A DNA stretch of 64,000 nt from a candidate division KSB1 bacterium (lineage in GTDB: Bacteria > Zhuqueibacterota > JdFR-76 > DREG01): NCBI GenBank assembly GCA_022566355.1, contig JADFJB010000001.1, positions 1-64,000 of the forward strand, in the 5' to 3' direction. Shown in pieces: positions 6,915-64,000 of this stretch. How positions within the stretch are numbered: position 1 is the stretch's first letter; the number at the start of each line of letters is the position of its first letter. Position numbers and translations under genes: made by a program. The notes under the pieces were generated by a model that made no database searches, had not been told where the DNA came from, and saw only the letters and a program-made list of their open reading frames with translations.

Positions 6915-6958
6915 TTTTATGTGTCTCCTTTCGTTCAATCGAATTTAACAAACATATC

Positions 6959-7990: not shown

Positions 7991-8034
7991 CGTATTGACC
8001 TCCATTAAAAATTATGCTAAAATGTACTTTCAAT

Positions 8035-9315: not shown

Positions 9316-9538
9316 TTTCTTCCTCAAATTTTTAATCTCATCTCCTTTTGTTGACGAGTCCGAAATGTTCCGCCCGTAAATTGTTCTTGTAAAAAGTTTT
9401 TTTATCGAAAATTTTTATAGATGTAGCATTTAACCTTGGTCGCCAGATATAAACTAACTTACAAAATTCTAACAAATACAAAGCATGCACTTGTATAAAC
9501 TACTGAACCGGCAACAGAAAAATGCGAATGAGAGATAT

Positions 9539-15342: not shown

Positions 15343-15390
15343 TTGTTAACTTAAAATTATGGCTTTTTGTCCTAATCCTGTGTGATGCTC

Positions 15391-15777
15391 TTATAGATTC
15401 GCAATTATAGATTTCAATAAATCTCGAACCTCTTCTACGATCTCACCTAATTTAGAATTTTCCACCGCCTGCATAGAAGCCATTGGATCGATAGCAGTAA
15501 CATCGACTTTGCCATCTTCAAACTCCTGTACGATTACGTTACAGGGAAGCATGGTGCCGATTTTATTTTCTATCTGAAGCGCTTCGTAGGCAAACTGTGG
15601 GTTGCAGGCGCCTAATATGCGGTATTTGTAGAAGTCCACATCCAGCTTCTTTTTTAAGGTCTCCGTAACGTCAATCTCTGTGAGAATCCCGAAACCCTTT
15701 TCTTGTAAGGCAGCTGTAACATTTTCTATTGCTTCATCGAAGCTCTGATTCACTGTTTTTGAAAAATAGTAACTCAT
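15391..15777 (-). CDS. DUF302 domain protein
   Basis: 128 residues forming a single DUF302 domain: SFDEAIENVTAALQEKGFGI, LGACNPQFAYEAL and GTMLPCNVIVQEF are the family landmarks, including the Cys residues near 74 and 95. DUF302 genes often travel with copper and heavy-metal resistance genes. Here it sits between the CusA-like permease and CopA. A good GGAG lies 8 nt before the ATG. The biochemical role is unknown; metal binding through the conserved Cys residues is a guess. Confidence 0.85.
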   Translation of the reverse strand: MSYYFSKTVNQSFDEAIENVTAALQEKGFGILTEIDVTETLKKKLDVDFYKYRILGACNPQFAYEALQIENKIGTMLPCNVIVQEFEDGKVDVTAIDPMASMQAVENSKLGEIVEEVRDLLKSIIANL

Positions 15778-15956
15778 TTTTTGTTCTCCTTATTTTCGTT
15801 TTGGCTTAATTTGTATCTTTTGTAAAATATAACCAAAGGCAACATTGAATCATCAATGAAACTAAAAAACTTGATACTTATCTGTAGAGGAATGACGGAT
15901 AACAAACGTGATCAAAAGTATTTTGTATCAAAAAACAACTCTCTCTATTGTACTCT

Positions 15957-18900: not shown

Positions 18901-19106
18901 AGTGGATAGGTCACCTGGTCTTCCACCAACTGCGGCGCCTGTCCTGGATATTCCGTAAGAATGATTACCTGGACGTCGCTTAAATCCGGTATTGCGTCCA
19001 CTGGCGTGTTGAGCAATTTATAAATACCGCCGAGAGCGATCATTATTGTGAAAATAATAACTAAAAAACGATTTTTTACTGAAGCTTCTATGATTCGTTC
19101 TATCAT
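15957..19106 (-). CDS. cusA: Copper/silver-type RND efflux permease (CusA-like)
   Basis: 1049 residues, full length. The TM4 motif IGVMVDAAIVMIENAHK is the CusA form. The periplasmic segments LLYMPTTDPGIS and RIDMLATGIKTP keep two of the three methionines that bind Cu+/Ag+ in E. coli CusA; the third position (ARYGL) has Leu, judged from memory of the E. coli sequence. The pump takes periplasmic or cytosolic Cu/Ag to the TolC-type channel. GGAG lies 9 nt before the ATG at 19106. It follows the adaptor gene after a 295-bp gap that contains a repeat element, and precedes DUF302 and copA. Confidence 0.92.
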   Translation of the reverse strand: MIERIIEASVKNRFLVIIFTIMIALGGIYKLLNTPVDAIPDLSDVQVIILTEYPGQAPQLVEDQVTYPLTSAMLAVPFAKAVRGYSFFGLSFVYIIFEDGTDLYWARSRVLEYLNFVSSRLPQGVNPTLGPDATGVGWIYEYVLDGGNQYDLQQLRSIQDWYLRYELMSVPGVAEVASIGGYVKQYQVEVDPNKLAAYNISISKVRMAIKSSNNDVGGRLVEFGETEFMVRGLGYIKSIQDLENIPLGVDNHGTPILIKNIANVSIGPELRRGLADWNGEGEVVGGIIVMRFGGNALATIDLVKEKMEELKKGLPPGVTIKAAYDRSVLINKAIDNLTRKLIEEIIIVALVCIIFLLHFRSAFVAIFTLPMGILIAFIIMSYQGITANIMSLGGIAIAIGVMVDAAIVMIENAHKHIERDGGKKDHWLIIIDAAKEVGPALFYSLLIITLSFLPVFTLQAQEGRLFSPLAFTKTYAMAASALLAITVVPVLMGFWIKGRIKPEDVNPINRFLIRIYRPLINFVLRFKWSTIIVAIVVMVVSILPFQRIGSEFMPPLNEGDLLYMPTTDPGISITKAKELLQQTDKIIKSFPEVHHVFGKIGRAETATDPAPLSMIETTITLKPENEWREGMTIEKLIEELDQSIQFPGLTNAWTMPIKTRIDMLATGIKTPVGIKLMGSDLKVLSDLAQRVATVVKNVPGTLSVFADKTVGGNYLDFTINREEAARYGLTVGAIQDVIMSAIGGMNVTWTVEGLERYPVNVRYSRELRDNLDDLRRVLIATPTGAQIPINYVADIEFKKGPSVIKSENARRTAWLYIDIRDIDVGTYVKNAKIVVEEEVDFPEGYSLVWSGQYEYMVRAQQRLRIVLPVTLLIIFLLLYLNFKNIQESFIVMLSLPFSLVGGIWFIYLLDYNLSVAVGVGFIALAGLSAEIGIIMLTYLDHAYNDRKGKLHSLQDLKEVILKATAMRIRPIVMTVSTTILGLLPIMWGHGAGSQVMKRIAAPMVGGLFSTTILCLLVIPTIYFLWRSRGLNKNIEDQIDQADSAVLKSS

Positions 19107-19204
19107 GTTAGATTTCTCCGTGTGTCCATTGTACTGAAAGATTCCATTTCTTCGAGAGACTGTGTGAAAATGGGAATAATTTTTATTACGATTCTAAAAG
19201 AACG

Positions 19205-19313
19205 CATGTCATTCCATAGGCTGCGTCCTGAGTGAAGTCGAAGGAAATCTTGTTATGGTTTGTGTAAGGTGTTGTTTTTTAACAAAGATCCAGTCACACG
19301 ACGGGATGACATG
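19205..19313. repeat. Intergenic repeat inside the copper efflux operon (diverged relative of copies A and C)
   Basis: Terminal inverted repeats CATGTCATTCC (19205-19215) and GGGATGACATG (19303-19313) bound a ~109-bp element between the adaptor and permease genes. It contains GTCCTGAGTGAAGTCGAAGG, a word common in short intergenic repeats of many environmental genomes, and AAATCTTGTTA, also seen in the elements at 2681 and 48781. The shared GTCATTCC/GGATGAC ends suggest one family. Being transcribed within the operon, its hairpin could affect mRNA stability between cusB and cusA. Confidence 0.6.
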
Positions 19314-19401
19314 TGTCGGACTTTTTAAATTATGTGATGATTCCATTAAACTTCGTGGTTAAAATAGTTTTCACACAGTAATCAGCGATAGAATAGCTGT
19401 T

Positions 19402-20922
19402 TCAGTGATTATGTTCTTTCGATTCCATGTTCTGCATGTTTTCCATCTCTTTCTTTTCTTTTGTTGCGCTATCTTGCGTATCCATTGGCTGTGTTTTTTT
19501 CTGTTTCTCAGCTAACAATTTTTGAATAACTTCTTGTAAGCGGCTTTCACTGTCAAGTAGAAACTGCGCTGAAATAACAACTTCTTCATTTCCAATGAGG
19601 CCGGAGATCACGCGGATTTTTCCGTTATCTCCTTCTTCTCCTAGTTTTACCTGCCGTGGTTCAAATTTTCCTTCACCCCGAACAACAAAAATCACATTTC
19701 GAGTGCCAGACCGTATGACCGCTTCGGATGGTATGATTACAGCATCTTTTATGGTAGGAGTCTGGATTTCTATATTCGCATACATACCAATCTTTAGCTC
19801 CAGAACCGGATTGGAAAAATCAAGGCGGACATGAGCAGTCCGTGATTTCTCGCGAAGATATGGGTAGATATAAGCGACTCTACCATGGAAAATCTTTCCA
19901 GGCAGGTAAGAAAGCTCCATTTTTGCTTCCGCCCCTTCCCGAATCCATGGCAATTCATAGTCATAAATACTTGCGTGAACCCAGATACTGGACAAATCTG
20001 CAATTTCATATAAATTTGTACCCGCCTTAACATGAAGGCCTTCAACAGCATTCTTTTGCACCACCATTCCACTTGCCGGCGATTCCAGCCTGATTGTTTT
20101 CTTTACTTCGCCGGTCTTTTCTAATCGATCAATTTCTGATTTAGGAACATCCCAGTAGAGAAGACGTTGTCGGCTTGATTCAAAAAGTGACTCCGAGTTT
20201 CTTGTAATCGAATCAAAAGTGCTCTTGGCTAGTTTCTTCCGGTTCTCAAGAGCCAACAAGAATTCTTGCTGGGTGATCACTAGCTCCGGTGAATAAATTT
20301 CGAGGAGAGGCTCTCCTTTACGAACCATCTCTCCTACGTAATTCACAAATAGCTTTTCGATCCAACCGGAAATTTTGGTGGTTACAATATATAGTTTTTC
20401 TTCATTGTACTGGATCTTTCCCACCGTTCGGATGGAACGGGTAAAATCTCCGCGTTCAACCATGGTGGTTCGAACACCCATGTTTTGTACAGTTACCGGG
20501 TCAATTTTTATATAACCACCAGCGCCAAGAGTTGTCTGGTCTTCATAGACTGGGATCAAGTCCATTCCCATCTTCGATTTCCCTGACTCGTCGTATATTT
20601 CAGTTGGATCCATGGGAGCTTGCCAATACAATACTTTGCGCTCACCTTTCGATTGTGTATCTTGAATTTCAGATTCCCCAGAAGTAATCCTTACCGGAAC
20701 AAGATCCATCTTGCATATAGGACATTGACCGGGTTCATGCAACAGAACTTCCGGATGCATTCCGCATGTCCATAACTGGCTCTCTTCCTGATGTTCCATC
20801 GCTGCCATTTCTGTGGTTTTTTCCTCTGAACCACAACTGGATAAGCTTACAATTAACCCGAAAAGAAGTGGAATGGAAAGAAAGGTTAATGCCCTTACTG
20901 ATAAGTTTGATTTATTTTTCAT
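19402..20922 (-). CDS. cusB: CusB-like efflux adaptor with N-terminal heavy-metal-binding domain
   Basis: 506 residues. A lipoprotein signal ends LIVSLSSC. A CGMHPEVLLHEPGQCPICKM heavy-metal-binding domain follows at about residues 45-70, then a degenerate second one (WQAPMDPTEIYDESGKSKMGM). After this come the lipoyl/barrel-sandwich, helical and beta-barrel parts of membrane-fusion proteins (ISGWIEKLFVNYVGEMVRKG; PASGMVVQKNAVEG; DAVIIPSEAVIRSG). The C-terminus is Met/His-rich (KEMENMQNMESKEHNH), fitting Cu+ capture. The ATG at 20922 has GGAG 6 nt upstream; an ATG at 20949 overlaps the stop of the TolC gene (ATGA) and is the alternative. Confidence 0.88.
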   Translation of the reverse strand: MKNKSNLSVRALTFLSIPLLFGLIVSLSSCGSEEKTTEMAAMEHQEESQLWTCGMHPEVLLHEPGQCPICKMDLVPVRITSGESEIQDTQSKGERKVLYWQAPMDPTEIYDESGKSKMGMDLIPVYEDQTTLGAGGYIKIDPVTVQNMGVRTTMVERGDFTRSIRTVGKIQYNEEKLYIVTTKISGWIEKLFVNYVGEMVRKGEPLLEIYSPELVITQQEFLLALENRKKLAKSTFDSITRNSESLFESSRQRLLYWDVPKSEIDRLEKTGEVKKTIRLESPASGMVVQKNAVEGLHVKAGTNLYEIADLSSIWVHASIYDYELPWIREGAEAKMELSYLPGKIFHGRVAYIYPYLREKSRTAHVRLDFSNPVLELKIGMYANIEIQTPTIKDAVIIPSEAVIRSGTRNVIFVVRGEGKFEPRQVKLGEEGDNGKIRVISGLIGNEEVVISAQFLLDSESRLQEVIQKLLAEKQKKTQPMDTQDSATKEKKEMENMQNMESKEHNH

Positions 20923-20945
20923 TCTGTACTCCATTAATTTGATTG

Positions 20946-22244
20946 TCATTTTCCCATTGCAAAATCACCGCCAACCGCACGTTCAAGCGCTGCCACTTGT
21001 TTGCAATAGTTGGCTTGTTCATTGGTATATGCCAATCGAAGTTGTAGAAGCATACGTTCTGCATCCAGTAAATTGAGAAAATCCAGTTTGCCGGTTTGGT
21101 ACGCAGCAATGGCTGATTGCAAACTGCTCTCCGCTTGCGTAAGTAAACCCTGTTCGTACAAATCCAAAATTTCTGCCAGTGTTTTTATTTGAAAAATTAG
21201 GTCTGCAACCTCAGCTTGAACATGATTCATCAAGTTCTCATAGCTTAAATTCTGTGCCAGGATATTCTCTTCGGCCTGGTTCACACCAGCTTTTCTACCG
21301 CCTAACCATATAGGCAGGTTAATACCAACCAAGATACCGAAAGGATCTTTACCTGAATCCGAAAATGAATTGTTTACCTTAGGAATTGTAATGTAAGTGG
21401 CTTGAATATTGAAATCCGGGTAGTAATTTTTTTTCGCCAATCTTTTGGCGAACTCAGCCTTTCGGATCATCGATTGATTGGCAAGCAGTTCTTGGCGCTG
21501 TGCAAGAGCCCGCTGCAATAATTGATTTTCATTGAGTTGAATCCTGCATGAATCGATCACCACAACGAGTCCAATGGGCGCATTCACTGGTTGATCCAAC
21601 AAGGCATTCATTCTTGTTACCACGCCTGTTCGCATTTTATCAAAGTTGAGTTGTTTAACGATGATGTTTGAAATTTCCACATGGGCTTTTAGTACTTGCG
21701 CCTGGATGCCTTGTCCGGTACTGTATCTTGTTGTAGCTACCTGGGCGAAATCACGGAGTAGATCAAGATATTGGTCGAGTATTTGTTTTGAACGGTCAAC
21801 TTTGTAAAGATTGAAATAAGTAGTCTTTACTTTGAAAATCACATCACGGCGAACTGCACTCAGGTGATATTGGGCCGCTTCAGCATCCTGGTTGGCAATC
21901 TCACCTTTAAGACCAAGTTTGCCTGGAAACGGAATGCGCTGTGTCAGCATGAATACATTTTCTTGCGGTCCAACTCGTGTTTCCACATTCTCTATCCACC
22001 TGGTATAACTTAACATTGGATCTGGCAGGGTAGAGACCTGGCTCGGAATATTGAGAAAAGCCAAGTAGCGTTTCTCAGCTGCTTGAATGGCAGGATTGTT
22101 CTGTGCAGCCTCTTGAATCAAATAGTTTAAGGATACCGGGGCCTTGGTTTTCAAGTCACTTGCACCCGTTTTTCCCTGGGCACTAATTTGCCAGGGAATC
22201 CAAATCCCTGAAATCAAAAATAAATAGAAATAAACTCGAAGCAT
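20946..22244 (-). CDS. TolC-family outer membrane protein of the copper efflux operon
   Basis: 432 residues with a signal peptide (ending QISAQG) and the two-fold helical repeat of outer membrane efflux proteins: NPAIQAAEKRYLAFLNIPSQ with LPDPMLSYT in the first half, PFGILVGINLPIWLGGRKAG in the second. The DPM-x-S/Y segment is common in CusC-like members of metal operons. GGAG lies 5 nt before the ATG. Its stop overlaps the alternative start of the adaptor gene, so the two are translationally linked or nearly so. Confidence 0.88.
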   Translation of the reverse strand: MLRVYFYLFLISGIWIPWQISAQGKTGASDLKTKAPVSLNYLIQEAAQNNPAIQAAEKRYLAFLNIPSQVSTLPDPMLSYTRWIENVETRVGPQENVFMLTQRIPFPGKLGLKGEIANQDAEAAQYHLSAVRRDVIFKVKTTYFNLYKVDRSKQILDQYLDLLRDFAQVATTRYSTGQGIQAQVLKAHVEISNIIVKQLNFDKMRTGVVTRMNALLDQPVNAPIGLVVVIDSCRIQLNENQLLQRALAQRQELLANQSMIRKAEFAKRLAKKNYYPDFNIQATYITIPKVNNSFSDSGKDPFGILVGINLPIWLGGRKAGVNQAEENILAQNLSYENLMNHVQAEVADLIFQIKTLAEILDLYEQGLLTQAESSLQSAIAAYQTGKLDFLNLLDAERMLLQLRLAYTNEQANYCKQVAALERAVGGDFAMGK

Positions 22245-52285: not shown

Positions 52286-52303
52286 ATGGCATAATCCTTG
52301 CTG
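52286..52303 (+). promoter_or_regulatory. Sigma54-type promoter for the PATAN/ParA/FtsZ cluster
   Basis: TATGGCATAATCCTTGCT has GG at 52288-52289 and GC at 52300-52301 with exactly 10 nt between, and matches the consensus TGGCAY-N5-TTGCW closely. Transcription would begin near 52313, 42 nt before the ATG of the first gene. The activator is probably the NtrC-type protein at 61010-62356. Confidence 0.65.
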
Positions 52304-52354
52304 AGCATCTCGTAAAAGATGTTTTAGATTTAGTTAATAGTGGATAAAAGAACA

Positions 52355-52969
52355 ATGAATATGCCTGAACACAGAGTTCTGATTGTAGATGATGAAGAAG
52401 ATTTAACCTGGAGCATCACCAAGAGCTTAAAAAGGGAAAATCGAATTTCAGAGGTAAATTCTTTCAACTCAGGTAGCGAAGCGTTAGAAATTCTACAAAA
52501 TGAAAGAGTAGATCTATTGGTCACTGATCTGCGCATGCCGGGAATTAATGGTTTTGCACTTATTAAGTATATTCAAGAAAAGAAATTAAATACAAAAATC
52601 ATCATTATGACAGCCTATAGATCCGAAGAAATTCTAAATAAAGTTTTAATGGATGATAAGTGTAGTTTCATAGAAAAACCATTTGAGATGAGTAGTTTGA
52701 AGCAAAAGATCTATAAAATTCTTGAGCCTGTGCCATTAAAAGTTAAGAACGATGCAAGCAGGAAAATTCTTCATCTTTTAGATACAACAACGACCATCGA
52801 TGATCTTCGGGTTACTTTGGTCAGTGGGAGTAAGAAGGGTCGTTTATACATTTCCAAAGGGCAGATCTATCAGGCAGAATTAGGATATATGAATGGAAAA
52901 AATGCACTCGATGAAATGCTAAATTGGGATCATTGTAGATTAGAAGTTGAATCTCCTCAAAACCCATAA
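52355..52969 (+). CDS. Response regulator with PATAN (DUF4388) output domain
   Basis: 204 residues. The receiver domain (about 1-120) has the acidic pair in LIVDDEEDLTW, the phospho-Asp in LLVTDLRMPGINGF, T in IIIMTAYRS and K in FIEKPFE. The C-terminal ~75 residues (KGRLYISKGQIYQAELGYMN, GKNALDEMLNWDHCRLEVE) are a PATAN-like domain, as in PatA-type regulators, without DNA-binding motif. Output by protein contact is expected. It is the first gene of the cluster. A GTG at 52340 in frame is possible, but ATG at 52355 leaves a more normal leader from the sigma54 start. Confidence 0.85.
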   Translation: MNMPEHRVLIVDDEEDLTWSITKSLKRENRISEVNSFNSGSEALEILQNERVDLLVTDLRMPGINGFALIKYIQEKKLNTKIIIMTAYRSEEILNKVLMDDKCSFIEKPFEMSSLKQKIYKILEPVPLKVKNDASRKILHLLDTTTTIDDLRVTLVSGSKKGRLYISKGQIYQAELGYMNGKNALDEMLNWDHCRLEVESPQNP

Positions 52970-53094
52970 TTTTGTTGAAGAGTAGTTTGAAAACCCGATG
53001 AAAAATAATTTTAGATTTAAGGAAATCACTAATTGTTTCCGATAAATAGAATTAATAAACTAAAAATGTTTTATTGAATTCCAGGAGTAGTTGC

Positions 53095-53883
53095 ATGGGC
53101 GAAGTTGTTTCAATTGCAAGTCAAAAAGGTGGTGTTGGTAAAACCACAACAGCGGTAAATTTGGGTGCTGCATTTGCTCATCTTAATTATAGAACATTAA
53201 TAATAGATTTGGATCCGCAGGGAGGTATAGCCTCTAGTTTCGGGATGAGTCGCTATGATATAAAGGGTGGAATTCTACAACTATTCACAGAAAATATGCC
53301 TATTGAACAAACAATCCATTCTACCGAACTGAGTAATTTAGACTTAATTCCATGCAATGTTTGGTCCGATGACGATGAAAAAAGGAAACTAATCGGATCA
53401 TCCGCAGAATCAAAACTGAAAGCTTGCTTACGTTCCATTAAAGAGGATTATGATTATTTTCTTATCGACTGTCCCCCAGCTTTGGGGAATCTAACTTATA
53501 ATGGTTTGATTGCATCGGATTCGATAATTGTTCCAATTCAATGTGAATATTATGCTTTAAAGGCTTTAGGGCGTTTTTTAAAATTAACACGGACAATCAA
53601 AGAAGAATATAATCCATCATTGAAGTACCGTGGATTCTTACTAACCATGTATGATTCGAGGAATAATTTAACCAAACGGGTTGTCGAAAAAGTAAAATAT
53701 ACCCTAAAGGGGATGGTGTTTGAAACGGTTATTCCACGAAATGTCAGGCTGGCAGAAGTGCCTTATTATGGCCGGCCCGTTATGCTTTTTGATCAAAAGT
53801 GTAAAGGTAGTCAAAGTTATATGCAGTTGGCGGAGGAGATGGTTGCTTCAAATCAAATTCAAATCAAGAAAGAAGTTGCCTAA
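53095..53883 (+). CDS. ParA/Soj-family ATPase
   Basis: 262 residues. Deviant Walker A KGGVGKTTTAVNLGAAF, DLDPQGGIASSFGMSR and FLIDCPPALGNLTYNGLIAS define ParA. The family places chromosomes, plasmids or protein arrays by ATP-driven surface patterning. No parB or parS lies next to it, so cargo other than DNA (for example the FtsZ- and Hpt-like proteins) is likely. AGGAG lies 7 nt before the ATG at 53095; the frame opens earlier at TTG 53074. The next gene starts 18 nt after the stop. Confidence 0.92.
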   Translation: MGEVVSIASQKGGVGKTTTAVNLGAAFAHLNYRTLIIDLDPQGGIASSFGMSRYDIKGGILQLFTENMPIEQTIHSTELSNLDLIPCNVWSDDDEKRKLIGSSAESKLKACLRSIKEDYDYFLIDCPPALGNLTYNGLIASDSIIVPIQCEYYALKALGRFLKLTRTIKEEYNPSLKYRGFLLTMYDSRNNLTKRVVEKVKYTLKGMVFETVIPRNVRLAEVPYYGRPVMLFDQKCKGSQSYMQLAEEMVASNQIQIKKEVA

Positions 53884-53901
53884 AAATTGAAAGGTAAGCG
53901 A

Positions 53902-54588
53902 ATGGTCATACGATTTCTTAGACGTCTCACGGTTTTGGTCGTGGTGGCGGTAGCGGTGGCGTTGGGAATCAGTGCAATTGGGTTCACTTTACACCGAATT
54001 GAAACATTTCATTTTTTTACGTTTAACAACAGAATGGAGGGTTCAATAAAAGAAATTGAAGGCTCTATAAAAGTAGATCAACAACGACAAAATGTAACAA
54101 TTAGAATTATTAGTATCATTGATAAATATAATCCTACTATGTCAACTGAGTTAAAGCAAGTAATAGCAGATTTGATTTATAAAATGGAAGTTAAATATGA
54201 TAATCTGAACGTAGATCTAATCTGTGCAACAATTACGCATGAAAGTGCCCGGACATGGGATCCAAAAGTTATTTCACCGGTAGGTGCGATGGGTTTAATG
54301 CAAATAATGCCTAAGACCGGCCAATTTCTAGTTGAATATGAAAATTTAAAATGGACTTCAGCAGAAGAGATTCTCAATAATCCAATTTATAATGTTCGTA
54401 TGGGATGTCGATATCTTTCGATGTTAATTGATTTTTATGGCATCGAAGGAGCTCTAGCTGCTTATAATGGTGGAGAAAAACGAGCTGCAATGTGGCTTGC
54501 TAACAATAAAGCTGATGGGATTTTATGGGAAGAAACTCAGAATTATGTACCTGCTGTAATGAAATTATACCGTAAATTTCAGAATTAG
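53902..54588 (+). CDS. Membrane-anchored lytic transglycosylase (SLT domain)
   Basis: 228 residues. One N-terminal membrane segment (LTVLVVVAVAVALGISAIGF) is followed by a helical linker and the SLT domain (about 75-225). The catalytic Glu is in CATITHESARTWDPKVISPV, followed by GAMGLMQIMPKTG and AAYNGGEKRAAMW. It cuts peptidoglycan in the periplasm. The start ATG 53902 has AAGG 7 nt upstream. Presence between ParA and FtsZ-like genes suggests local opening of the wall at the site the system marks, for instance for an export apparatus. Confidence 0.9.
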   Translation: MVIRFLRRLTVLVVVAVAVALGISAIGFTLHRIETFHFFTFNNRMEGSIKEIEGSIKVDQQRQNVTIRIISIIDKYNPTMSTELKQVIADLIYKMEVKYDNLNVDLICATITHESARTWDPKVISPVGAMGLMQIMPKTGQFLVEYENLKWTSAEEILNNPIYNVRMGCRYLSMLIDFYGIEGALAAYNGGEKRAAMWLANNKADGILWEETQNYVPAVMKLYRKFQN

Positions 54589-54599
54589 GAGATACGTAT

Positions 54600-57500
54600 A
54601 TGTCGACAATTCAGACTTCTCCTGAACAAACTAATGAAGCAGGTTTCAACGAAACTTTATTGGAGCGCTTTTTCAACCCAAAAAGCTATTTCCTCCAAAA
54701 ATTTATGACTTCTCTTAATAAGAGTGATTCTTCTGTTCCTGAGACAGCGCATGCCGTTACTGTTGGTTTAATTATGGATGAAATCATCAATTCGGAAAAT
54801 AAACTAAGATTATTTAAACAGCTAGATCAGTTTGATGAATTTCGCAGGTATCATGAACAATTAGATTACGGTATCGATTGCTTAAAGAATTCCAGGTTAA
54901 CTACCCAGCAGATGATGGACATCGTAGGAGCCCTTGGGCAATCTCTTTCATCCACACTTCTGGATCTCTTATCTAAAGAGTCTACCAAATCCATGCTACT
55001 TGATATATTCGGATTAGAATCAACTAGTAATGGCAATGGTAATGATCATTCTTCAATGTCTAAAGATTCATTAAATGATGAGATAAAGAAAATCGACGAT
55101 GTCCTCTCTCTTGAATCATTGTCTTTTAATGATGAAGATGAAATTCCTCAACAAAGTGAATTAAGCTCGGAAACTGAAATTGTATTTTCTTCTAAACCAA
55201 AACCTGAATTTCCTGTTCTAAAAGTAGACGAGAAAGAAACAGGAGAATTAGGTGATGAAACAGAGAATTCACTTTTCCAAGATTCACAACCAGAAACACC
55301 CGTAACTAAAATTGAGGAACAAGGACCAGAGGAATTAAGCTCGGAAACTGAAATTGTATTTTCTTCTAAACCAAAACCTGAATTTCCTGTTCTAAAGGGA
55401 GACGAGAAAGAAACAGGAGAATTAGGTGATGAAACAGAGAATTCACTGTTCCAAGATTCACAACCAGAAACACCCGTAACTAAAATTGATGAGAAAGATT
55501 CGGTGAAATTAATCGATGAAATTGAAAAATCGATTTTTCATGAGTTAAAATCCGAACCGCTGGTTGATAAAGCAGAAGAATCAAAGTCGGAAAAATTAAC
55601 AATTGAATCTGATAATCTGTCATTCACCGAATCAAAGATTGAGCCACACGAACCTCATGTGGAACTGAAAACTGAGAATTTAAAACCGGTAAATGAACTA
55701 TTTAATCCTCAAGAATCTGACGGATTCCCTTTACATTCCGATCTTAACGAACCAACTGGATTTAAAGAAAAGCCAAAAGATCTAAATGGTAACGAGATTG
55801 TTCAACAATTTGCCAAGTTGGATGAGATTGAAAGTATCGAACCCAATCCAACCGATTTACAACCTTGGTCCTATTTCCAGGATGATGTAAGTAATAAATT
55901 AAGAAGCATACGGAAAAATATTGATAATTTCTGCCTGAATGCAAACGATTGGAAATCATTTAAAAAAATCAAAAATGATTTTAAAGATTTGCGCGATGGG
56001 GCGATGATCCAAGGTGATGAAGGAATTGAAGCGCTCTCATTCAAGGTATTGCTGTTATTTGAAACTGCATACATGAAAGGAATAGAAAAACGATCAATTC
56101 TTAAGAACATTCTCAACGACGCCTGGGAAGCCGTTGCTGTTGTCAACAGCTCCGGAAAAGGCAGCGAGAGATTGGATATCGTTAGATTGGTAGCACATCA
56201 AATTGATAAACAAAGAGAAGTTTACCCGGAAGAATTGTTCGTCCAAAATGGCAAAACAGAAAAAGCTGCTCCAATAATCGAGAAAGTTGATGTCAAAGAA
56301 AATTCAAATAATTTCTCCAAAAAGACAAACGAAGAACCAATTGTTATCCTGAATAAGCCTGAACTTGAAGAAATCTACGAGTTCAATGAACCCGAGCCTT
56401 CCATAAATGAAACAGAAATACACGATGAACATGTCGACACGGTAGAATTTAAATCAATTCGTGAATCCGAGCTTCTTACCGAACTTATGGAGGAACAACT
56501 AGAGGCTGAAGAAGATTCTGTAAATCGATCCCAATTATCTGAAAATCTAAGTCTTAAAGAACATCCGGATTCGAACTTAGATAGACAGATTGATTCTTTA
56601 AGCGATGTATCTAAAACAACAGGGGAATCAGATTTAATGGAATCAAGCGATTTACCATTGACAGAGCCAGAACCTTCTTCTTCTAAACAGCCACAACCTG
56701 TTGCAATAAATTTGCCAGGAGAAGCTGATGAAGATTTGCTCGAAATATTGGAAGATATTAAAAATGAAGAATCGCAGCTAAACTTAGTTGAACCGGCGAA
56801 TAGTGAATCTCAAAGTGAGCAAGTAGAAGATCAAAATGAATCCAACTTTGATTTTTACATAGAAAAGTTGCAGAAGGATTATGAAGCCAATCAAACTAAA
56901 CATCCGGAAAATAGCAAAAATGATCATAATGGCTCTTCACAACCTGACCCAGGAAACGGTGGGATTAAAGGGAACATAAAGTCGGGTGACACAGGGGATG
57001 GCTACGATTTTGTTTCGGAATCTGATATGTATTTTTCTTTTGCCCGAAAGTCTCTTCAAAACTTGATGAGAAATCCTTCTGATTCACAATCACTGGAAGA
57101 CATTGAGCTGGCATTTTACTCATTAAAAACTTTAGCCAAAAAACTTGGTTATAAAACCATTTATCAGTTGATGGCTTATGCGGAAAATTTGATAAGTAAC
57201 AAAAAGGAAAATGAATCTTCCATGACCGTAACCCAGGTTAATGGTCTATACACGGCAGTTTCCGAAATTGAACATGCTTGCAGAGAGAAAAGATTAAACG
57301 AGCCGGAAAGGCAATCCTGGATTAATCAGCAAATAAAAATCATTCAAGGATGGAGTGAAATTCCAGCCTCTTTAGAGAAAGAGGAAATCGATGTTTCACC
57401 TGTTCAACTTGAGAAGAAAGAAAATCCATCAGATGATCCGTTAGATTTTTTATTATTTGATGACACTTCAAAATTTTTTAAGCAGTTGTTAAGAGAGTAA
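54600..57500 (+). CDS. Large acidic scaffold-like protein with degenerate Hpt-like domains
   Basis: 966 residues, no signal or membrane segment. Helical modules at about 1-140, 417-545 and 806-915 are separated by acidic disordered linkers rich in E, S and P. The module at 417-545 (NDFKDLRDGAMIQGDEGIEA) and that at 806-915 (IELAFYSLKTLAKKLGYKTI) follow the Hpt pattern a-H-x-L-K-G-s-A-x-x-x-G-f, but lack the phospho-accepting His. This is pattern reading by eye. The first linker has a 58-residue tandem duplication. GGAG lies 8 nt before the ATG. It may organise the ParA/FtsZ assembly as a scaffold. No named family is known to me. Confidence 0.65.
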   Translation: MSTIQTSPEQTNEAGFNETLLERFFNPKSYFLQKFMTSLNKSDSSVPETAHAVTVGLIMDEIINSENKLRLFKQLDQFDEFRRYHEQLDYGIDCLKNSRLTTQQMMDIVGALGQSLSSTLLDLLSKESTKSMLLDIFGLESTSNGNGNDHSSMSKDSLNDEIKKIDDVLSLESLSFNDEDEIPQQSELSSETEIVFSSKPKPEFPVLKVDEKETGELGDETENSLFQDSQPETPVTKIEEQGPEELSSETEIVFSSKPKPEFPVLKGDEKETGELGDETENSLFQDSQPETPVTKIDEKDSVKLIDEIEKSIFHELKSEPLVDKAEESKSEKLTIESDNLSFTESKIEPHEPHVELKTENLKPVNELFNPQESDGFPLHSDLNEPTGFKEKPKDLNGNEIVQQFAKLDEIESIEPNPTDLQPWSYFQDDVSNKLRSIRKNIDNFCLNANDWKSFKKIKNDFKDLRDGAMIQGDEGIEALSFKVLLLFETAYMKGIEKRSILKNILNDAWEAVAVVNSSGKGSERLDIVRLVAHQIDKQREVYPEELFVQNGKTEKAAPIIEKVDVKENSNNFSKKTNEEPIVILNKPELEEIYEFNEPEPSINETEIHDEHVDTVEFKSIRESELLTELMEEQLEAEEDSVNRSQLSENLSLKEHPDSNLDRQIDSLSDVSKTTGESDLMESSDLPLTEPEPSSSKQPQPVAINLPGEADEDLLEILEDIKNEESQLNLVEPANSESQSEQVEDQNESNFDFYIEKLQKDYEANQTKHPENSKNDHNGSSQPDPGNGGIKGNIKSGDTGDGYDFVSESDMYFSFARKSLQNLMRNPSDSQSLEDIELAFYSLKTLAKKLGYKTIYQLMAYAENLISNKKENESSMTVTQVNGLYTAVSEIEHACREKRLNEPERQSWINQQIKIIQGWSEIPASLEKEEIDVSPVQLEKKENPSDDPLDFLLFDDTSKFFKQLLRE
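55158..55505. repeat. 174-bp tandem in-frame duplication inside the acidic protein gene
   Basis: Copy 1 (55158-55331) and copy 2 (55332-55505) differ at only about 3 of the first 158 bases, then diverge. The unit encodes 58 residues (ELSSETEIVFSSKPKPEF and GELGDETENSLFQDSQPETP). The near identity shows a recent duplication that keeps the frame and lengthens the acidic linker. Confidence 0.9.
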
Positions 57501-57561
57501 ACATTTTTAATAATAAATCACTTTCAAGGATCTATGAAATCAAATATCCAATAGGAATAAT

Positions 57562-59325
57562 ATGAAAGAGGACAAGAAAATTACATTTCAAAGTGATACT
57601 GACAAAGAGTTAGAAGCCCTGCTTAAATCGCATAAAACGGTGATCAAGGTCATTGGGACGGGGGGCGCTGGGAATAATACCATTTCCAGGCTATTAGAAG
57701 CAGGTATTGATGATGTTCAAACCTATGCCATTAATACCGATGCCCAGGATCTCCTTTTTACAAATGCTGATCATAAAATCCTGATTGGTAGAGAAATTAC
57801 TAGTGGCCTGGGTGCAGGGAGTGATCCTAAAGTGGGTGAAGATTCGGCGGTTGAAAATGAGAATGAAATAAAAGCAATTGTAAGTGATGCGGATTTAGTT
57901 TTTGTCACGTGTGGACTGGGTGGCGGTACTGGAACCGGTTCTGCACCGATTATAGCCGAATTGGCAAAAGAAGCAGGTGCATTAACCATATCTATAACAA
58001 CATTGCCATTTTCAGAAGAAGGGGTAATGAGAAGAAATAATGCTGAGTATGGGCTGGAGCGGTTAAAAAAGAATTCCGATACCCTTATTGTAATTGAAAA
58101 TGACAAATTGTTGGAGATTGATCCTGATGTGTCTTTGGATGAGGCGTTTCGTGTAGCTGACGATGTTTTAGTAAACGCTGTCAAAGGGATAACTGAATTG
58201 GTTACGCAAAAGGGCTTGGTTAATTTGGATTTTGCAGATATTCGAACAATAATGAAAGACGGTGGAACTGCATTAATCGGGATGGCTGAAAGTGAGTCAC
58301 CTGATAGGGCCATAGATGCTGTTGAAAAAGCAGTAGCAAATCCCTTGATTGATCTAAAAATTGACGGTGCAAAAAGTGCATTGCTCAATATAACCGGCGG
58401 CAGGGATATGACAATCAGAGATGCAAAAACAGCCATGCATACTTTGGCGCGAAAATTAGATAAATCTGCAAAGATCATCTGGGGGGCTCGTATAAGTCCG
58501 GACCTTGATAAAAAAGTTTACGTGATGGTTTTAGCCACAGGGTTGAGTAATGATATGATTCCTTCTAATGTAGAATTGGTTTCCTATGAGAGTAACTCTA
58601 AAAAATTGGTCAAAAAAACATCTTACGGAACAAAAACCTCTTCCCAGCTCCTTGATGAAGAAAACGATAATGAAAGTTCATCTACGAAGACCGAAGCGCA
58701 ATCTGTTGATGAAGAAAAACTAAACAGCTCTAAAAAGATTTTTTCTGAAATTATGGAAGAGGAGTCTGATGCAGATTTAAAGATTCTTTCTGATGTTATA
58801 ATGGAACTTCAAGAAAACATCACTGACAGTGATCAATGGGAAGAACTAAGGAAAGCAAGTTCTTCACTAGCTGGAACAGCACAAATGTTTGATTTCGATG
58901 ATATTTCCAAGACGATGAACTTGGCCGAAGATTTCTTGGCCAGTATTATTTATAAAGATTTATTCTTTGAACAAGTTCTCGAATTGTTTACGGATATCCC
59001 AAACCATCTGCAATTGATGATCCGGAATGAGGCGGATTCCATGAAATGGGCACAAGAATTTAAAGTTAAAGCTGATTTATTAGCGAAATCAATTCGCAGC
59101 AATGATATTTCTACAAAAGAAGATTTCGTAAAAGAGTTAGAGAAGATTAACAAAGATATGGATAAGCATTTGGTTGAATCCGGTTATGATACAGAATCGG
59201 GTCCAGCTTCAACAGGGGACTCAAAAATGGATAGTGAAAAAACCTCGAAAGATGTTTCGAATGTAAATGATGCAATGCAATATGTGAAAAGCTTATTGCG
59301 CAAAGACGAAAATCCGTCAAAATAA
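57562..59325 (+). CDS. FtsZ-family GTPase resembling archaeal FtsZ1, with C-terminal helical (Hpt-like) domain
   Basis: 587 residues. The FtsZ core (about 25-330) has GTGGAGNN at 32-39, NTDAQDLL, the G-box GGGTGTGSAP at 120-129, and the T7 loop NLDFADIRTIM at 221-231 with both catalytic Asp. Phrases such as VFVTCGLGGGTGTG, TLPFSEEG, DVLVNAVKGITELVTQKGL and AKIIWGARI read like archaeal FtsZ1, not the bacterial division FtsZ. After a low-complexity linker comes a ~180-residue helical domain (LRKASSSLAGTAQMFDFDDI near 429-448), Hpt-like but without the His. The usual FtsZ C-terminal peptide is missing. No dcw genes are near. AGGA lies 5 nt before the ATG. GTPase activity looks intact; a role apart from division is proposed. 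Confidence 0.85.
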   Translation: MKEDKKITFQSDTDKELEALLKSHKTVIKVIGTGGAGNNTISRLLEAGIDDVQTYAINTDAQDLLFTNADHKILIGREITSGLGAGSDPKVGEDSAVENENEIKAIVSDADLVFVTCGLGGGTGTGSAPIIAELAKEAGALTISITTLPFSEEGVMRRNNAEYGLERLKKNSDTLIVIENDKLLEIDPDVSLDEAFRVADDVLVNAVKGITELVTQKGLVNLDFADIRTIMKDGGTALIGMAESESPDRAIDAVEKAVANPLIDLKIDGAKSALLNITGGRDMTIRDAKTAMHTLARKLDKSAKIIWGARISPDLDKKVYVMVLATGLSNDMIPSNVELVSYESNSKKLVKKTSYGTKTSSQLLDEENDNESSSTKTEAQSVDEEKLNSSKKIFSEIMEEESDADLKILSDVIMELQENITDSDQWEELRKASSSLAGTAQMFDFDDISKTMNLAEDFLASIIYKDLFFEQVLELFTDIPNHLQLMIRNEADSMKWAQEFKVKADLLAKSIRSNDISTKEDFVKELEKINKDMDKHLVESGYDTESGPASTGDSKMDSEKTSKDVSNVNDAMQYVKSLLRKDENPSK

Positions 59326-59339
59326 TATTGAGTTTTATC

Positions 59340-60092
59340 ATGTCTGAGAAAAAAGAAACCGTAATTTCGGAACCAGCTTTGGAATTTGTTTCCTACTATC
59401 AAAAAGAAATGCGTCGAAACATAGCAGATATCCGTAAGTTGATTTCTGATGTTGAGAACCAGGAGGATACCGAAAATTTACTTCAAGAAATAAAAAAAAG
59501 TGGACTGGCCATGAGTGATCTGGCAATGGTCTACGGTTTTGAGAGTGAAGAAGTAATTGGACGAACGATCGTAATGATGGTGGATACGCACGATAAAGAA
59601 AATGATTCGGAAAAACTAATCTCAAATTTAATAGATTCTGTAAAAGCTGCGGAAGCCGTATTACTGGTCAGCGAGAAAGAAAAGGAAAAAGATGGGAATA
59701 AAATAATCAAATACAATGCCGAAGAAGATTCTGTAACGATTAGCAGCGAAGAAGTTGACGAAGGGGATGAGAATGGGCTTATATTTGATATTAAAGAAGA
59801 TGAGGGATTGATCTCTCTCATAAAAGGAGAATACTCGATAACAACGTCGACAATCAAATCTACAAATTTTGAAGATGGAGTTGCTGAGAATTCATTTTTG
59901 CCGAAAGATCAAAATCGATCTTTGAAATTTGATATTCCTGAAGAAGATGATTCCAGCTCTGAAATTCAGAGTTCTTTTACTGAGCTGGACGATGTTTTGG
60001 AGATTAATTTTGTCGAAAAGCCGGTAGTTACCCAAAAAGAACAAAAGAGTATTTTTAAGAAAATTACCGACTTATTTAGTTCAAAAAATTAA
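59340..60092 (+). CDS. Acidic protein with N-terminal degenerate Hpt-like helix bundle
   Basis: 250 residues, very acidic. The N-terminal ~95 residues are helical (FVSYYQKEMRRNIADIRKLI, LLQEIKKSGLAMSDLAMVYG, FESEEVIGRTI) and echo the Hpt pattern of its two upstream neighbours, again with no phospho-His. The rest is a disordered acidic stretch and ends in KSIFKKITDLFSSKN, an amphipathic basic helix that could touch the membrane. It begins 14 nt after the FtsZ-like gene; the frame has TTG at 59328 but ATG at 59340 is preferred. No family recognised. Confidence 0.6.
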   Translation: MSEKKETVISEPALEFVSYYQKEMRRNIADIRKLISDVENQEDTENLLQEIKKSGLAMSDLAMVYGFESEEVIGRTIVMMVDTHDKENDSEKLISNLIDSVKAAEAVLLVSEKEKEKDGNKIIKYNAEEDSVTISSEEVDEGDENGLIFDIKEDEGLISLIKGEYSITTSTIKSTNFEDGVAENSFLPKDQNRSLKFDIPEEDDSSSEIQSSFTELDDVLEINFVEKPVVTQKEQKSIFKKITDLFSSKN

Positions 60093-60237
60093 GAAGCCAG
60101 TAATTTATATCCTGCTTATTTGCCAACCTTATCCTTTCTTTTTGTCTCTTATTTCAAATTTATTCAAAACTTGCCGAATAATAAACTAAGGCTTCCGTTG
60201 GTTGCCATAAAACTAGTTCTGTACTGGAAAGAGGAAA

Positions 60238-61002
60238 GTGAAATCTAATTTAGAAAAACAGGATCTGGTTGTTGAAGATGAAATTCCGGGTCAAATAAAG
60301 AATAACCAAAAGCATTTTTTGCTGTTCAAAGAAAAAATGGCCAGTCTGGAACAACTTGCCGCAGGGATTGCTCACGAATTACGAAATCCTCTAAGCATCA
60401 TCGGGACTTCCGTTTATTATCTCAACAAAGTTCTGGAGAATCATCCGGAAGTGCGTGTCCACGAACATTTAACTATCATGCAGGTCGAAATCATACGATC
60501 ACAACGAATCATTAACAATTTGCTGGATTTTTCCCAGAGGACAAGTACGGAACGTGAAAGTGCCGACGTTAACAAAATTATTCGGCAAACCCTCTCATTG
60601 ATAGAGAAAAATCTATTGTACCAGGAAATAGAATTAGAATCAAATTTGGAGCATGGTCCTCTCTGTTTTATCAATGTTAGTGAGATAAAACAAGTTCTAC
60701 TCAATATATTTATGAATGCTATGGAGGCTATGCCAAGCGGTGGATGTTTGACAATCCACACTTATGTCAAAGAAAAAAATTACTTAGCTGTTGATATCAC
60801 CGACACAGGGATTGGCATCGAACAGGAAGATTTGAAAAAAATTTTTGAACCGTTTTTTTCATCAAAATTAGATCAAAATGGAATTGGTCTGGGGTTATCA
60901 CTGGTAGACGCAAGCATTTCCAGGAATCACGGCGAAATACATATTACATCAGAAATAGGAAAAGGTACAAAGGTATCCATAGTGTTACCTATTTCATCTT
61001 AA
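60238..61002 (+). CDS. Soluble sensor histidine kinase
   Basis: 254 residues, no membrane segment and only a short N-terminal part before the kinase core. H-box LAAGIAHELRNPLSIIGTSV (phospho-His near 45), N-box LLNIFMNAMEAMPSGG, G1 DITDTGIGIEQEDL, F-box FEPFFSS and G2 GIGLGLSLVDA are all present. With no sensory domain, its input likely comes from the Hpt-like or acidic partners. The GTG start has GAGG 4-8 nt upstream. The response regulator gene follows after 7 nt, so they form a pair. Confidence 0.9.
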   Translation: MKSNLEKQDLVVEDEIPGQIKNNQKHFLLFKEKMASLEQLAAGIAHELRNPLSIIGTSVYYLNKVLENHPEVRVHEHLTIMQVEIIRSQRIINNLLDFSQRTSTERESADVNKIIRQTLSLIEKNLLYQEIELESNLEHGPLCFINVSEIKQVLLNIFMNAMEAMPSGGCLTIHTYVKEKNYLAVDITDTGIGIEQEDLKKIFEPFFSSKLDQNGIGLGLSLVDASISRNHGEIHITSEIGKGTKVSIVLPISS

Positions 61003-61009
61003 ATTAAAT

Positions 61010-62356
61010 ATGAAATATCAAAAAGAAAAAATATTAATCGTTGATGATGAACCGAATTTTTTGCGGGCATTACGCGATACCCTTGAGTTGGAATCATTTG
61101 AGATTTTCACAAGCCTTTCTGCCCTGGAAGCTCTACCGATTTTACATGAAAATAGAATTGATGCTGTTATTACTGATTTACGTATGCCCAAAATGAGCGG
61201 AATTGAACTGCTGCGTGAAATAAAACAAAAATGGCCTGGCGTAATCGTATTCATATTAACCGGTTACGGTTCTATTCAACATGCTGTCGACTGCATGAAG
61301 CTTGGTGCGGAAAATTATATTTTGAAGCCGATCAACATCATGGATCTAATAAGCAATTTAAAAACAGCGCTGATGAAATCTTCTGAGACAGAGAAGAAAA
61401 ACGCAGGCAACACTGCTGATATGGACTTTCCATTCATTGGCCAGTCAAGTGCCACTATAGAGACAAGAGAATTGGTAAAGAAAATTGCGCATTCCGAACT
61501 TTCAGTAGTAATCAAAGGCGAAAGCGGAACAGGTAAAGAGCTGATCGCAAATGCTATTTATCAGTACAGTAATCGTAAGAATAAGCCATTTCTTAAAATT
61601 AATTGTGCCGCCCTGCCACTTCATTTATTAGAAAGTGAATTATTTGGCTATGAGCCAGGTGCTTTTACGGATGCAAAAAAACTAAAGCGTGGAAAGCTGG
61701 AAATCGCTCATCAAGGCACTTTGTTTTTAGATGAGATTGGCGATATGCCAATCGAAATGCAGGCAAAATTACTTCGTGTTTTGGAAGAGCACGTTGTGGA
61801 AAGGCTTGGTGGTAATCAATTGATTCAAACGGACTTTCGTCTGATTTCAGCGACCAATCAAAACCTGGAATTGTGTATCAAAAATGGTGAATTTCGCAAT
61901 GACCTTTATTTCCGATTAAATACAATGCAAATCAATTTAAAGCCTTTACGTGAGATTAGAGAAGATATTCAATTGATCAGTAATTATTTTGTCCAACGAT
62001 ATTCAATTGAGCAGAAAATTAATCAGCCATCAATACATTCAAAAACGATGGAAATTTTTTTATCTTACCATTGGCCTGGAAATGTGCGTGAGCTGAGGAA
62101 TGTGATCCAAAGATCGGTGGTACTATGCGATGGTAAAGATATTCTTCCGGAACACCTTCCTGATCACATGCATTGGCATGAGTATAATGACGTTGAAATT
62201 GACTCGACATCCCTTTTGTCTCTTGAAGATATGGAAAGGGAGCATATTCAAAAAGTTATGCAAATCGCTTCCGGTAACAAAAATCGAACCGCGGCCCTCT
62301 TAAAAATCCATCGTGATACACTTTATAGAAAATTGCGGAAATACGAATTGGATTAA
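61010..62356 (+). CDS. NtrC-family sigma54 activator response regulator
   Basis: 448 residues in the order receiver (1-120; LIVDDEPNFLRA, VITDLRMPKMSG, LTGYGS, LKPINIM), AAA+ domain (about 140-370; GESGTGKELIANAIYQYSNR, Walker B GTLFLDEIGDMPIEMQ) and Fis-type helix-turn-helix (GNKNRTAALLKIHRDTLYRK). The sigma54-contact loop reads GAFTDA instead of GAFTGA; this variant occurs in other members, so it should still work. It pairs with the kinase upstream and probably drives the two sigma54-type promoters at 52286 and 62639. Activation is by phosphorylation at the conserved Asp. Confidence 0.92.
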   Translation: MKYQKEKILIVDDEPNFLRALRDTLELESFEIFTSLSALEALPILHENRIDAVITDLRMPKMSGIELLREIKQKWPGVIVFILTGYGSIQHAVDCMKLGAENYILKPINIMDLISNLKTALMKSSETEKKNAGNTADMDFPFIGQSSATIETRELVKKIAHSELSVVIKGESGTGKELIANAIYQYSNRKNKPFLKINCAALPLHLLESELFGYEPGAFTDAKKLKRGKLEIAHQGTLFLDEIGDMPIEMQAKLLRVLEEHVVERLGGNQLIQTDFRLISATNQNLELCIKNGEFRNDLYFRLNTMQINLKPLREIREDIQLISNYFVQRYSIEQKINQPSIHSKTMEIFLSYHWPGNVRELRNVIQRSVVLCDGKDILPEHLPDHMHWHEYNDVEIDSTSLLSLEDMEREHIQKVMQIASGNKNRTAALLKIHRDTLYRKLRKYELD

Positions 62357-62638: not shown

Positions 62639-62656
62639 TTGGAACAAGACTTGCTA
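62639..62656 (+). promoter_or_regulatory. Sigma54-type promoter for the polysaccharide export genes
   Basis: TTGGAACAAGACTTGCTA has GG at 62641-62642 and GC at 62653-62654, exactly 10 nt apart, with the TTGCT of the -12 element intact and the -24 element differing from TGGCAC by one base. The expected transcript start is near 62666, about 56 nt before the Wza-like start codon. Confidence 0.6.
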
Positions 62657-62721: not shown

Positions 62722-63462
62722 TTGGCAAAGAAATATACGGTAAAAATTTTATTAATTTTCTGCTTAATATCAAGTCTCCTGTTTGGATGTTCTAACAGAG
62801 TTGGAATTAAACAGCCGCAACAAAGTTATGGAAATGGATCTAGCAGTCAATCTGTTGAAAATCAACCAGTTGTTCCTGCGGAATATCTATTAGGTTTTGG
62901 TGATGAAATAGAAGTCAGATTTTTCAACAATGCACGATTCAATGAAACTATTACAGTACGGCCTGATGGTCGAATTACATTGGAAAAAGTTGGCGACATT
63001 TATGTATCTGGAATGACCCCTAGTGGCTTGGACAGTATAATTACAAAATCCTATTCAGATTTGTTAATCAACCCGGAAGTAACGATATTCGTTCGACAGT
63101 TCGGGGGGTATAATGTTTATCTACTAGGAGAAGTGAACGAACCAGGGGGTTATCCAATAACGCGCAATATGACAATTTTACAGGCAATTGCGCAAGCCGG
63201 TGGAGCCAAGGATAGCGCCAAGCTAAAGAGTGTAATGATATTGCGATTAGGTCAGGATGAGCAAATCGAAGCCATTAAAGTCAACTTAAAAGAACTATTA
63301 AAAGGTGCAAACATTCCAAACCAGTATTACTTGCGCCCACAAGATATTGTTTATGTTCCAAAAACATTTATTGCGGGAATTAGCTCATTTCTTAAACAAG
63401 TCTATGATGGAGCGTTTCCGCCTGTTGATATTTATTTGAGAGTATTATTCTGGACCAAATGA
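62722..63462 (+). CDS. Wza-like polysaccharide export outer membrane lipoprotein
   Basis: 246 residues. The lipoprotein signal LISSLLFGCSN gives a lipidated Cys near 23. A poly-export domain (AEYLLGFGDEIEVRFFNNAR, TVRPDGRITLEKVGDIYVSG) is followed by an SLBB domain (VYLLGEVNEPGGYPITRNMT, ILQAIAQAGGAKDSAK) and a C-terminal DIVYVPKTFIAGISSFLKQV. It exports polysaccharide through the outer membrane. The start is TTG at 62722 with GGGAAG 12 nt upstream. It is shorter than E. coli Wza. Confidence 0.9.
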   Translation: MAKKYTVKILLIFCLISSLLFGCSNRVGIKQPQQSYGNGSSSQSVENQPVVPAEYLLGFGDEIEVRFFNNARFNETITVRPDGRITLEKVGDIYVSGMTPSGLDSIITKSYSDLLINPEVTIFVRQFGGYNVYLLGEVNEPGGYPITRNMTILQAIAQAGGAKDSAKLKSVMILRLGQDEQIEAIKVNLKELLKGANIPNQYYLRPQDIVYVPKTFIAGISSFLKQVYDGAFPPVDIYLRVLFWTK

Positions 63463-63510
63463 AGCTTGTTTTACAAGATTCTTAAAGTCTGAACAAAACA
63501 TAATTCACAA

Positions 63511-63551
63511 CGCCAAGGAATCTCATTTTATAATTTGGGACTGACTTGGCG
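63511..63551. other. Short inverted repeat between the export and chain-length genes
   Basis: CGCCAAG (63511-63517) and CTTGGCG (63545-63551) form a 7-bp stem around a 27-nt loop within the 146-bp gap after the Wza-like gene. It could be a weak attenuator or RNA-processing hairpin between two genes of one operon. No T-run follows, so it is not a classic terminator. Confidence 0.3.
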
Positions 63552-63608
63552 GAGCTGTATTTAAATAAATTAAAACTAAATCAATAATTCCCGGAGTAAA
63601 AAAACTAA

Positions 63609-64000
63609 ATGTTTAGTGAATCAAAATACGAAAACTCATTTTCCTTAAGAAATTTATTCATGGTCATATTTAAACGAAAATTGACATTACTGGTCGTTTT
63701 TCTGTCTGTCGTTGCAATTGGATCTATTGTCAGTTATTTATTGCCAAGAATATACCAGGCAAAAGCAACAATTTTAATTAAAGATGATACCGAAGACGAA
63801 AAGGCCATTTTATTCAAAAATAGTGCTTATAGAGGAATCGGGCAATTTGATTGGGTAAATTCTGAGGTGGAAATTCTTAGAAGTTACCCAGTTGCAGAAC
63901 GTGTGGTTCAAGAACTGCAATTATCTCAGGTTTATTTTAAAAATCATTCAAATAAACCTAACATTGATAAAATTATTTTTGCTAAAACGGTAATAAGAGT
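63609..64000 (+). CDS. Wzz/GumC-type chain-length determinant, cut by window end
   Basis: The first 130 codons of a gene that continues beyond the window. The N-terminal Wzz domain shows SLRNLFMVIFKRKLTLLVVF, then the periplasmic start SYLLPRIYQAKATILIKDD and WVNSEVEILRSYPVAERVVQ. These are the landmarks of polysaccharide co-polymerases that control chain length and work with the Wza-type exporter directly upstream. GGAG lies about 12 nt before the ATG. If there is a C-terminal tyrosine kinase domain, it lies beyond the window. Confidence 0.88.
   Translation, partial: MFSESKYENSFSLRNLFMVIFKRKLTLLVVFLSVVAIGSIVSYLLPRIYQAKATILIKDDTEDEKAILFKNSAYRGIGQFDWVNSEVEILRSYPVAERVVQELQLSQVYFKNHSNKPNIDKIIFAKTVIR

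Follow-up and report, generated by a model that had tools for sequence, protein, structure and literature searches.

A conserved gene module around a second FtsZ of archaeal affinity in candidate division KSB1 bacteria

The first 64,000 nucleotides of contig JADFJB010000001.1, from a candidate division KSB1 bacterium (GenBank assembly GCA_022566355.1, here genome G000), were analysed and are called the window throughout. Positions 52287-60092 hold a conserved unit built around an FtsZ paralogue (FtsZ2) whose affinity is not bacterial; it is read here as an operon under probable sigma54 control that encodes a second machine of the FtsZ kind. A preliminary description, drawn from the sequence alone, had placed eight plus-strand genes in a row here, flanked on both sides by sigma54-type promoters. 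All eight genes were found, their families were matched (Response_reg, AAA_31, SLT, Tubulin/FtsZ_C, HisKA/HATPase and Sigma54_activat), and the promoter sites lie at 52287 and 62640. The conserved unit comprises the following features.

52287..52302, plus strand: sigma54-type -24/-12 element TGGCATAATCCTTGCT upstream of the module; the best site in its upstream region, equalled in at most 1 of 200 shuffles
52361..52969, plus strand: receiver protein with a C-terminal PATAN (DUF4388) domain; Response_reg 7.9e-27
53095..53883, plus strand: orphan ParA-type ATPase; AAA_31 4e-51, Walker A KGGVGKTT, no adjoining parB
53887..54588, plus strand: SLT-type lytic transglycosylase; SLT 2.3e-20, N-terminal transmembrane stretch, catalytic Glu motif (by inspection)
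54600..57500, plus strand: acidic scaffold of 966 residues, pI 4.4; its N-terminal domain is helical and new, and it also contains two pseudo-Hpt domains and a conserved LPGEDDEELL motif
57562..59325, plus strand: FtsZ2; Tubulin 5.1e-46 plus FtsZ_C, with an archaeal-like GTPase core, a disordered linker, a pseudo-Hpt domain and a C-terminal helix
59340..60092, plus strand: acidic partner; N-terminal pseudo-Hpt domain, acidic stretch and, in many relatives, a short basic amphipathic helix at the C-terminus

Several of these products needed closer definition. The PATAN match of the window protein is weak (E 0.56), and the assignment was confirmed through its orthologues, where the receiver is found in 14 of 14 and DUF4388 in 10 of 14 (best 1.3e-14). 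The ParA lacks the neighbouring parB of a ParABS system, as the preliminary description had noted, the sole ParB detected being encoded on another contig (C17). Neither the scaffold nor the acidic partner has a credible Pfam family; the N-terminal domain of the scaffold, predicted at a pLDDT of 90, has no convincing match in the PDB by Foldseek or VIA-align (best Z 4.0). The amphipathic helix of the partner, exemplified by FFHKIGKLFGSKSEK, is a possible membrane anchor. FtsZ2 itself scores as a complete FtsZ with TIGR00065 (411 bits, above the cut-off of 295), and both its GTP-binding GGGTGTG and its T7 loop residues are intact, as invariant alignment columns.

A 30-row FtsZ2 profile was used to search 82 genomes of the phylum, and full-length FtsZ2 was found in 50. 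Contamination is unlikely, since the contigs that carry FtsZ2 are long and include housekeeping genes; the one in G015 measures 1.0 Mb. The N-terminal domain of the scaffold is present in 32 genomes; FtsZ2 accompanies it in 31 of them, each time on the same contig and at a distance of a few kilobases. The sole scaffold genome without FtsZ2, G004, is an 82% complete assembly in which the scaffold is on another contig. The preliminary description had called for this gene order to be searched in related genomes, and there the genes do stay together: among the loci mapped, seven families (f1, f4, f9, f10, f12, f14 and f20) show, with some losses, the order PATAN receiver, ParA, small receiver, transglycosylase, scaffold, FtsZ2, acidic partner. 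What is conserved across families is thus a sigma54-type promoter ahead of genes for ParA, a transglycosylase, acidic scaffolds and a paralogue of FtsZ. In f6, f8, f11, f13 and f17 only a receiver and FtsZ2 are left, next to two histidine kinase (HK) genes and an NtrC gene (HK-HK-NtrC), and in f16 FtsZ2 stands alone. In f7 its place is taken by a transglycosylase and a very divergent tubulin-fold protein beside HK-NtrC genes (L046:8580-10109 in G009, Tubulin 9.6e-24; also L047 in G017). Full-text literature searches found no account of this gene combination or of an archaeal-type FtsZ in bacteria.

Canonical FtsZ, checked in 44 genomes, accompanies FtsZ2 in nearly all genomes that have the latter. 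In the window genome the canonical ftsZ adjoins ftsA on contig C42, separate from FtsZ2, and its product carries the FtsA-binding tail DVYDIPAYLRKRK, of the usual DIPAYLRK type. The window protein is a paralogue, distinct from this canonical FtsZ. Could it nevertheless be an auxiliary part of the division machinery? On such an account, a sigma54-switched module would add FtsZ2 and a transglycosylase to the ring, and ParA and the scaffold would choose the division site in the manner of PomZ and PomX/Y of Myxococcus. A ParA-type ATPase, a scaffold and FtsZ are indeed the ingredients of the Pom system (PMC7993993, PMC10307791), archaea use FtsZ1 and FtsZ2 in one ring (PMC8178401), and a zapA-like gene, identified by inspection, lies a few genes from FtsZ2 in several families. 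However, the C-terminal FtsA/ZipA-binding peptide is absent from the FtsZ2 tails inspected, and FtsZ2 lies outside the dcw cluster. Moreover, about 40% of the phylum's genomes lack FtsZ2, including families f5, f18 and f19 and a few others, although many of them are at least 95% complete, so that FtsZ2 is dispensable for division in the phylum. We consider an auxiliary division role unlikely.

In sequence, the FtsZ2 GTPase resembles the archaeal proteins. Among solved structures, its best match is FtsZ1 of Methanocaldococcus jannaschii (365 bits), followed by Odinarchaeota FtsZ1 (357), and the best bacterial chain scores 286; the best matches of the predicted structure are likewise archaeal FtsZ1 proteins. 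Identity reaches 55-60% with FtsZ1 of DPANN archaea and 54% with that of M. jannaschii, as against approximately 43% with archaeal FtsZ2, 44% with bacterial FtsZ and 41-46% with the phylum's own canonical FtsZ. At columns diagnostic for FtsZ1 versus FtsZ2 of archaea, the window type agrees with FtsZ1 in 10 of 12. One archaeal relative, on a contig labelled Nanoarchaeota (QMVD01000034.1; L073:1-4012), encodes an FtsZ1 60% identical to the window protein, followed by genes that read by inspection as Spt5, L11, L1 and L10; this is a true archaeal contig. Two FtsZ trees with different taxon sets were built, and alternative placements were compared by approximately unbiased (AU) tests. In both trees all bacterial FtsZ form one clade (support 100/100) apart from FtsZ2, which groups with DPANN FtsZ1 (96/80 and 85/73). 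A grouping with the FtsZ of its own phylum is rejected (AU p 1.1e-4 and 3.2e-5), so FtsZ2 is no duplicate of the phylum's division FtsZ; the preliminary description had named a clustering with a sole division FtsZ as what would overturn it, and a second, canonical ftsZ does exist. No C-terminal GID motif, which binds SepF, was seen by inspection in the last 45 residues of 30 FtsZ2 proteins, and no SepF was found in the window genome.

Beyond its core, FtsZ2 shares a domain with its neighbours. Structure prediction lays the protein out as a GTPase core (residues ~11-330), a disordered linker, a helical domain (~382-540, pLDDT ~93) and a C-terminal helix. Iterated profiles reveal that this helical domain recurs in the acidic partner and at two places in the scaffold, with pairwise hhalign E-values between the three proteins of 1e-5 to 7e-19. 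Pfam Hpt is matched by 15 of 30 FtsZ2 proteins (best 3.4e-6), and the FtsZ2-tail profile matches chains of CheA P1 structures at 2.4e-12. The column of the phospho-histidine holds Ser, Lys, Tyr, Gln, Leu or other residues and His in none of 97 copies, which bears out the 'degenerate Hpt' label given to these proteins in the preliminary description and suggests a signalling domain turned structural. In contrast to this loss, the acidic pocket, phospho-Asp and Lys of the receiver proteins are invariant in relatives. Intact receivers together with a lost phospho-histidine suggest that receivers dock on structural Hpt domains in a manner that depends on phosphorylation.

PATAN receivers and orphan ParA proteins are found with pili and chemosensory arrays. 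Together with a shared domain closest to CheA P1, this recalls a machine for motility or a surface organelle, such as type IV pili, in which a former chemosensory array would have left behind the PATAN receiver and CheA-like domains, and the transglycosylase would make a passage through the wall. Against this, none of the neighbours of the module in the loci that were read was identified as a pilus, Tad or chemotaxis gene, and we hold such a role to be quite improbable.

A sigma54-type promoter element recurs with the module. An element of roughly TGG[CT]A[TC][AG]N4TTGC lies upstream in 14 of 19 loci (shuffle p at most 0.05); in some of the other loci it may have been missed because the start positions are uncertain. 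In most families HK-HK-NtrC genes stand directly upstream of FtsZ2 loci. Within the window, the module is followed by another regulator pair and by export genes.

60238..61002, plus strand: histidine kinase core without a sensor domain (HisKA/HATPase); probably part of the downstream exopolysaccharide unit, outside the module
61010..62356, plus strand: NtrC-type regulator (Sigma54_activat); not orthologous to the module-adjacent NtrC of other families
62640..62655, plus strand: second sigma54-type site TGGAACAAGACTTGCT, upstream of the Wza gene; a separate unit
62722: Wza gene
63609: Wzz gene
C40:13523-22744 of G000 (L213:7524-16745): regulator unit on another contig, with gcvPB, receiver, HK, PAS-kinase, receiver-PAS-HK and NtrC; no FtsZ2 there

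The preliminary description counted the HK/NtrC pair as members and controllers of the cluster. Orthology points elsewhere: the counterpart of the module-adjacent NtrC in the window genome is encoded on contig C40 (58% identity, 567 bits), whereas the window NtrC scores only 358 bits. In G002, a close relative, the module occurs and the pair does not, and the pair was accordingly dropped as module regulator. A counterpart of the C40 unit sits directly beside FtsZ2 in several other families, and the unit is probably a trans regulator of the window module. Since gcvPB precedes the same regulators, by inspection, at the f11 FtsZ2 locus and the f7 locus as well as on C40, an ancestral locus was probably split in the window lineage. 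The window pair, next to which comes an exopolysaccharide unit with its own sigma54-type site, is best read as the regulator of that unit. Window positions 62722-64000 and L048:13610-19863 encode Wza, Wzz/GNVR, an AAA ATPase with a second AAA_31 region, a sugar transferase and a flippase, and this region is a Wzx/Wzy-type exopolysaccharide locus. Tested as the PEP-CTERM/exosortase regulator PrsR, the window NtrC reached 378 bits with TIGR02915, below the cut-off of 502.6.

These results also bear on the model first proposed for the locus, in which the module, governed by the adjoining HK/NtrC pair, determines where the wall is opened to let polysaccharide out. Its appeal lies in the order of genes in the window, to which a Wzz gene after the module in f4 can be added, as can the f16 genome G035, where FtsZ2 (782 residues; L070, contig C40 of that genome) is alone among polysaccharide and cytochrome/TPR genes. 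In most families, however, the neighbours are housekeeping genes (guaB, rpsT, mutS, gmk or gcvPB, thrS, infC, pheST), the link is missing in G002, and the usual NtrC of the module is a different protein. A general polysaccharide link was dropped after this comparison, and the export model now appears highly improbable. What stands of the preliminary description is the module of ParA, FtsZ, transglycosylase and scaffold with its sigma54 promoter; the HK/NtrC pair and the export role do not. It had overlooked the archaeal affinity of FtsZ2, the pseudo-Hpt homology across three adjacent proteins and the recurrence of the sigma54 element.

Elsewhere in the window, the minus strand carries two sets of RND-type genes for metal efflux together with a metal ATPase of the P type, all of ordinary appearance (3798-9327 and 12889-22244).

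Taken together, the module reads as a second FtsZ machine, in which a sigma54-controlled, ParA-positioned filament tied together by pseudo-Hpt domains would guide local opening of the wall; we give this reading a probability of about one half. With its GTPase core and T7 loop intact, FtsZ2 would form GTP-dependent filaments separate from the division ring, and its CheA-P1-like domain, devoid of the phospho-histidine, would bind the like domains of the scaffold and the acidic partner. The amphipathic helix of the partner may hold the assembly at the membrane, substituting for FtsA or SepF, and the orphan ParA would set the position of the scaffold within the cell. When phosphorylated, the PATAN receiver, joined in many genomes by a lone receiver, would dock on the dead Hpt domains and thereby switch the assembly, and the membrane-bound transglycosylase would open or remodel peptidoglycan at the site of the filament. 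Candidate processes are envelope remodelling apart from division, a special mode of division and an organelle; polysaccharide export is the least supported.

Some observations weigh against this reading and against an archaeal source of its GTPase. ParA, transglycosylase and scaffold are not always required, since five families keep FtsZ2 with a receiver only and f16 has FtsZ2 alone, and the amphipathic helix of the partner is missing in some relatives. In the trees, a position of FtsZ2 on the stem between archaea and bacteria stays compatible (AU p 0.25 and 0.34), as does a pairing with archaeal FtsZ2 (AU p 0.41). Archaeal transfer is therefore the simplest reading and is not proven: judged on sequence, the GTPase was most likely acquired from archaea, as an FtsZ1 type, by an ancestor of the phylum, an older origin being possible. 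A more tentative proposal joins both threads, namely that an FtsZ1 taken over from archaea served the phylum as the basis of a second, positioned machine of the tubulin type, independent of the divisome and acting on the envelope, with dead Hpt domains as the glue between polymers, which would amount to a new class of bacterial cytoskeleton and an archaea-to-bacteria transfer of ftsZ.

Comparison with known systems places the module among several partial relatives. Archaeal FtsZ1 (M. jannaschii 1FSZ/2VAP and DPANN FtsZ1) has the nearest GTPase core, at 54% and up to 60% identity; FtsZ2 differs from it in residing in a bacterium, in its pseudo-Hpt fusion, in the lack of a visible GID motif in the last 45 residues and in not lying beside Spt5 and ribosomal protein genes. 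The canonical FtsZ on C42 shares the FtsZ fold and GTPase motifs with FtsZ2, but at only ~45% identity and in a separate clade, and it alone of the two has the FtsA-binding tail. The pseudo-Hpt domain resembles CheA P1/Hpt as a helical bundle, yet it has lost the phospho-histidine and is joined to FtsZ and scaffolds instead of a kinase. Like the non-divisome FtsZ-superfamily proteins FtsZl-1 and FtsZl-2 (Makarova and Koonin 2010, PMC2875224), which have conserved neighbourhoods of their own, FtsZ2 would lie outside the divisome and has a conserved neighbourhood; the partners of those two families are vWA, GTPase and OmpA-family proteins, and FtsZ2 differs in having other partners and in being a full FtsZ. 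By analogy, the module would work like a Pom-type positioned FtsZ system, as PomX/PomY/PomZ of Myxococcus xanthus likewise combine a ParA/MinD-type ATPase with large scaffolds acting on an FtsZ filament. The Pom system acts on the sole division FtsZ and is not known to include an FtsZ paralogue of its own, a transglycosylase, pseudo-Hpt domains or a sigma54 operon. In a survey of FtsZ evolution published in 2023, transfer of ftsZ between archaea and bacteria was not detected to any notable extent (PMC9871819), and a 2021 study found archaeal and bacterial FtsZ clearly separated (PMC8178401). An archaeal-like FtsZ spread through a phylum of bacteria that already have a normal FtsZ would depart from both findings. 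The module also supplies a defined group of components with which the idea of a second FtsZ filament, having its own positioning ATPase, membrane linker and wall enzyme, can be put to the test.

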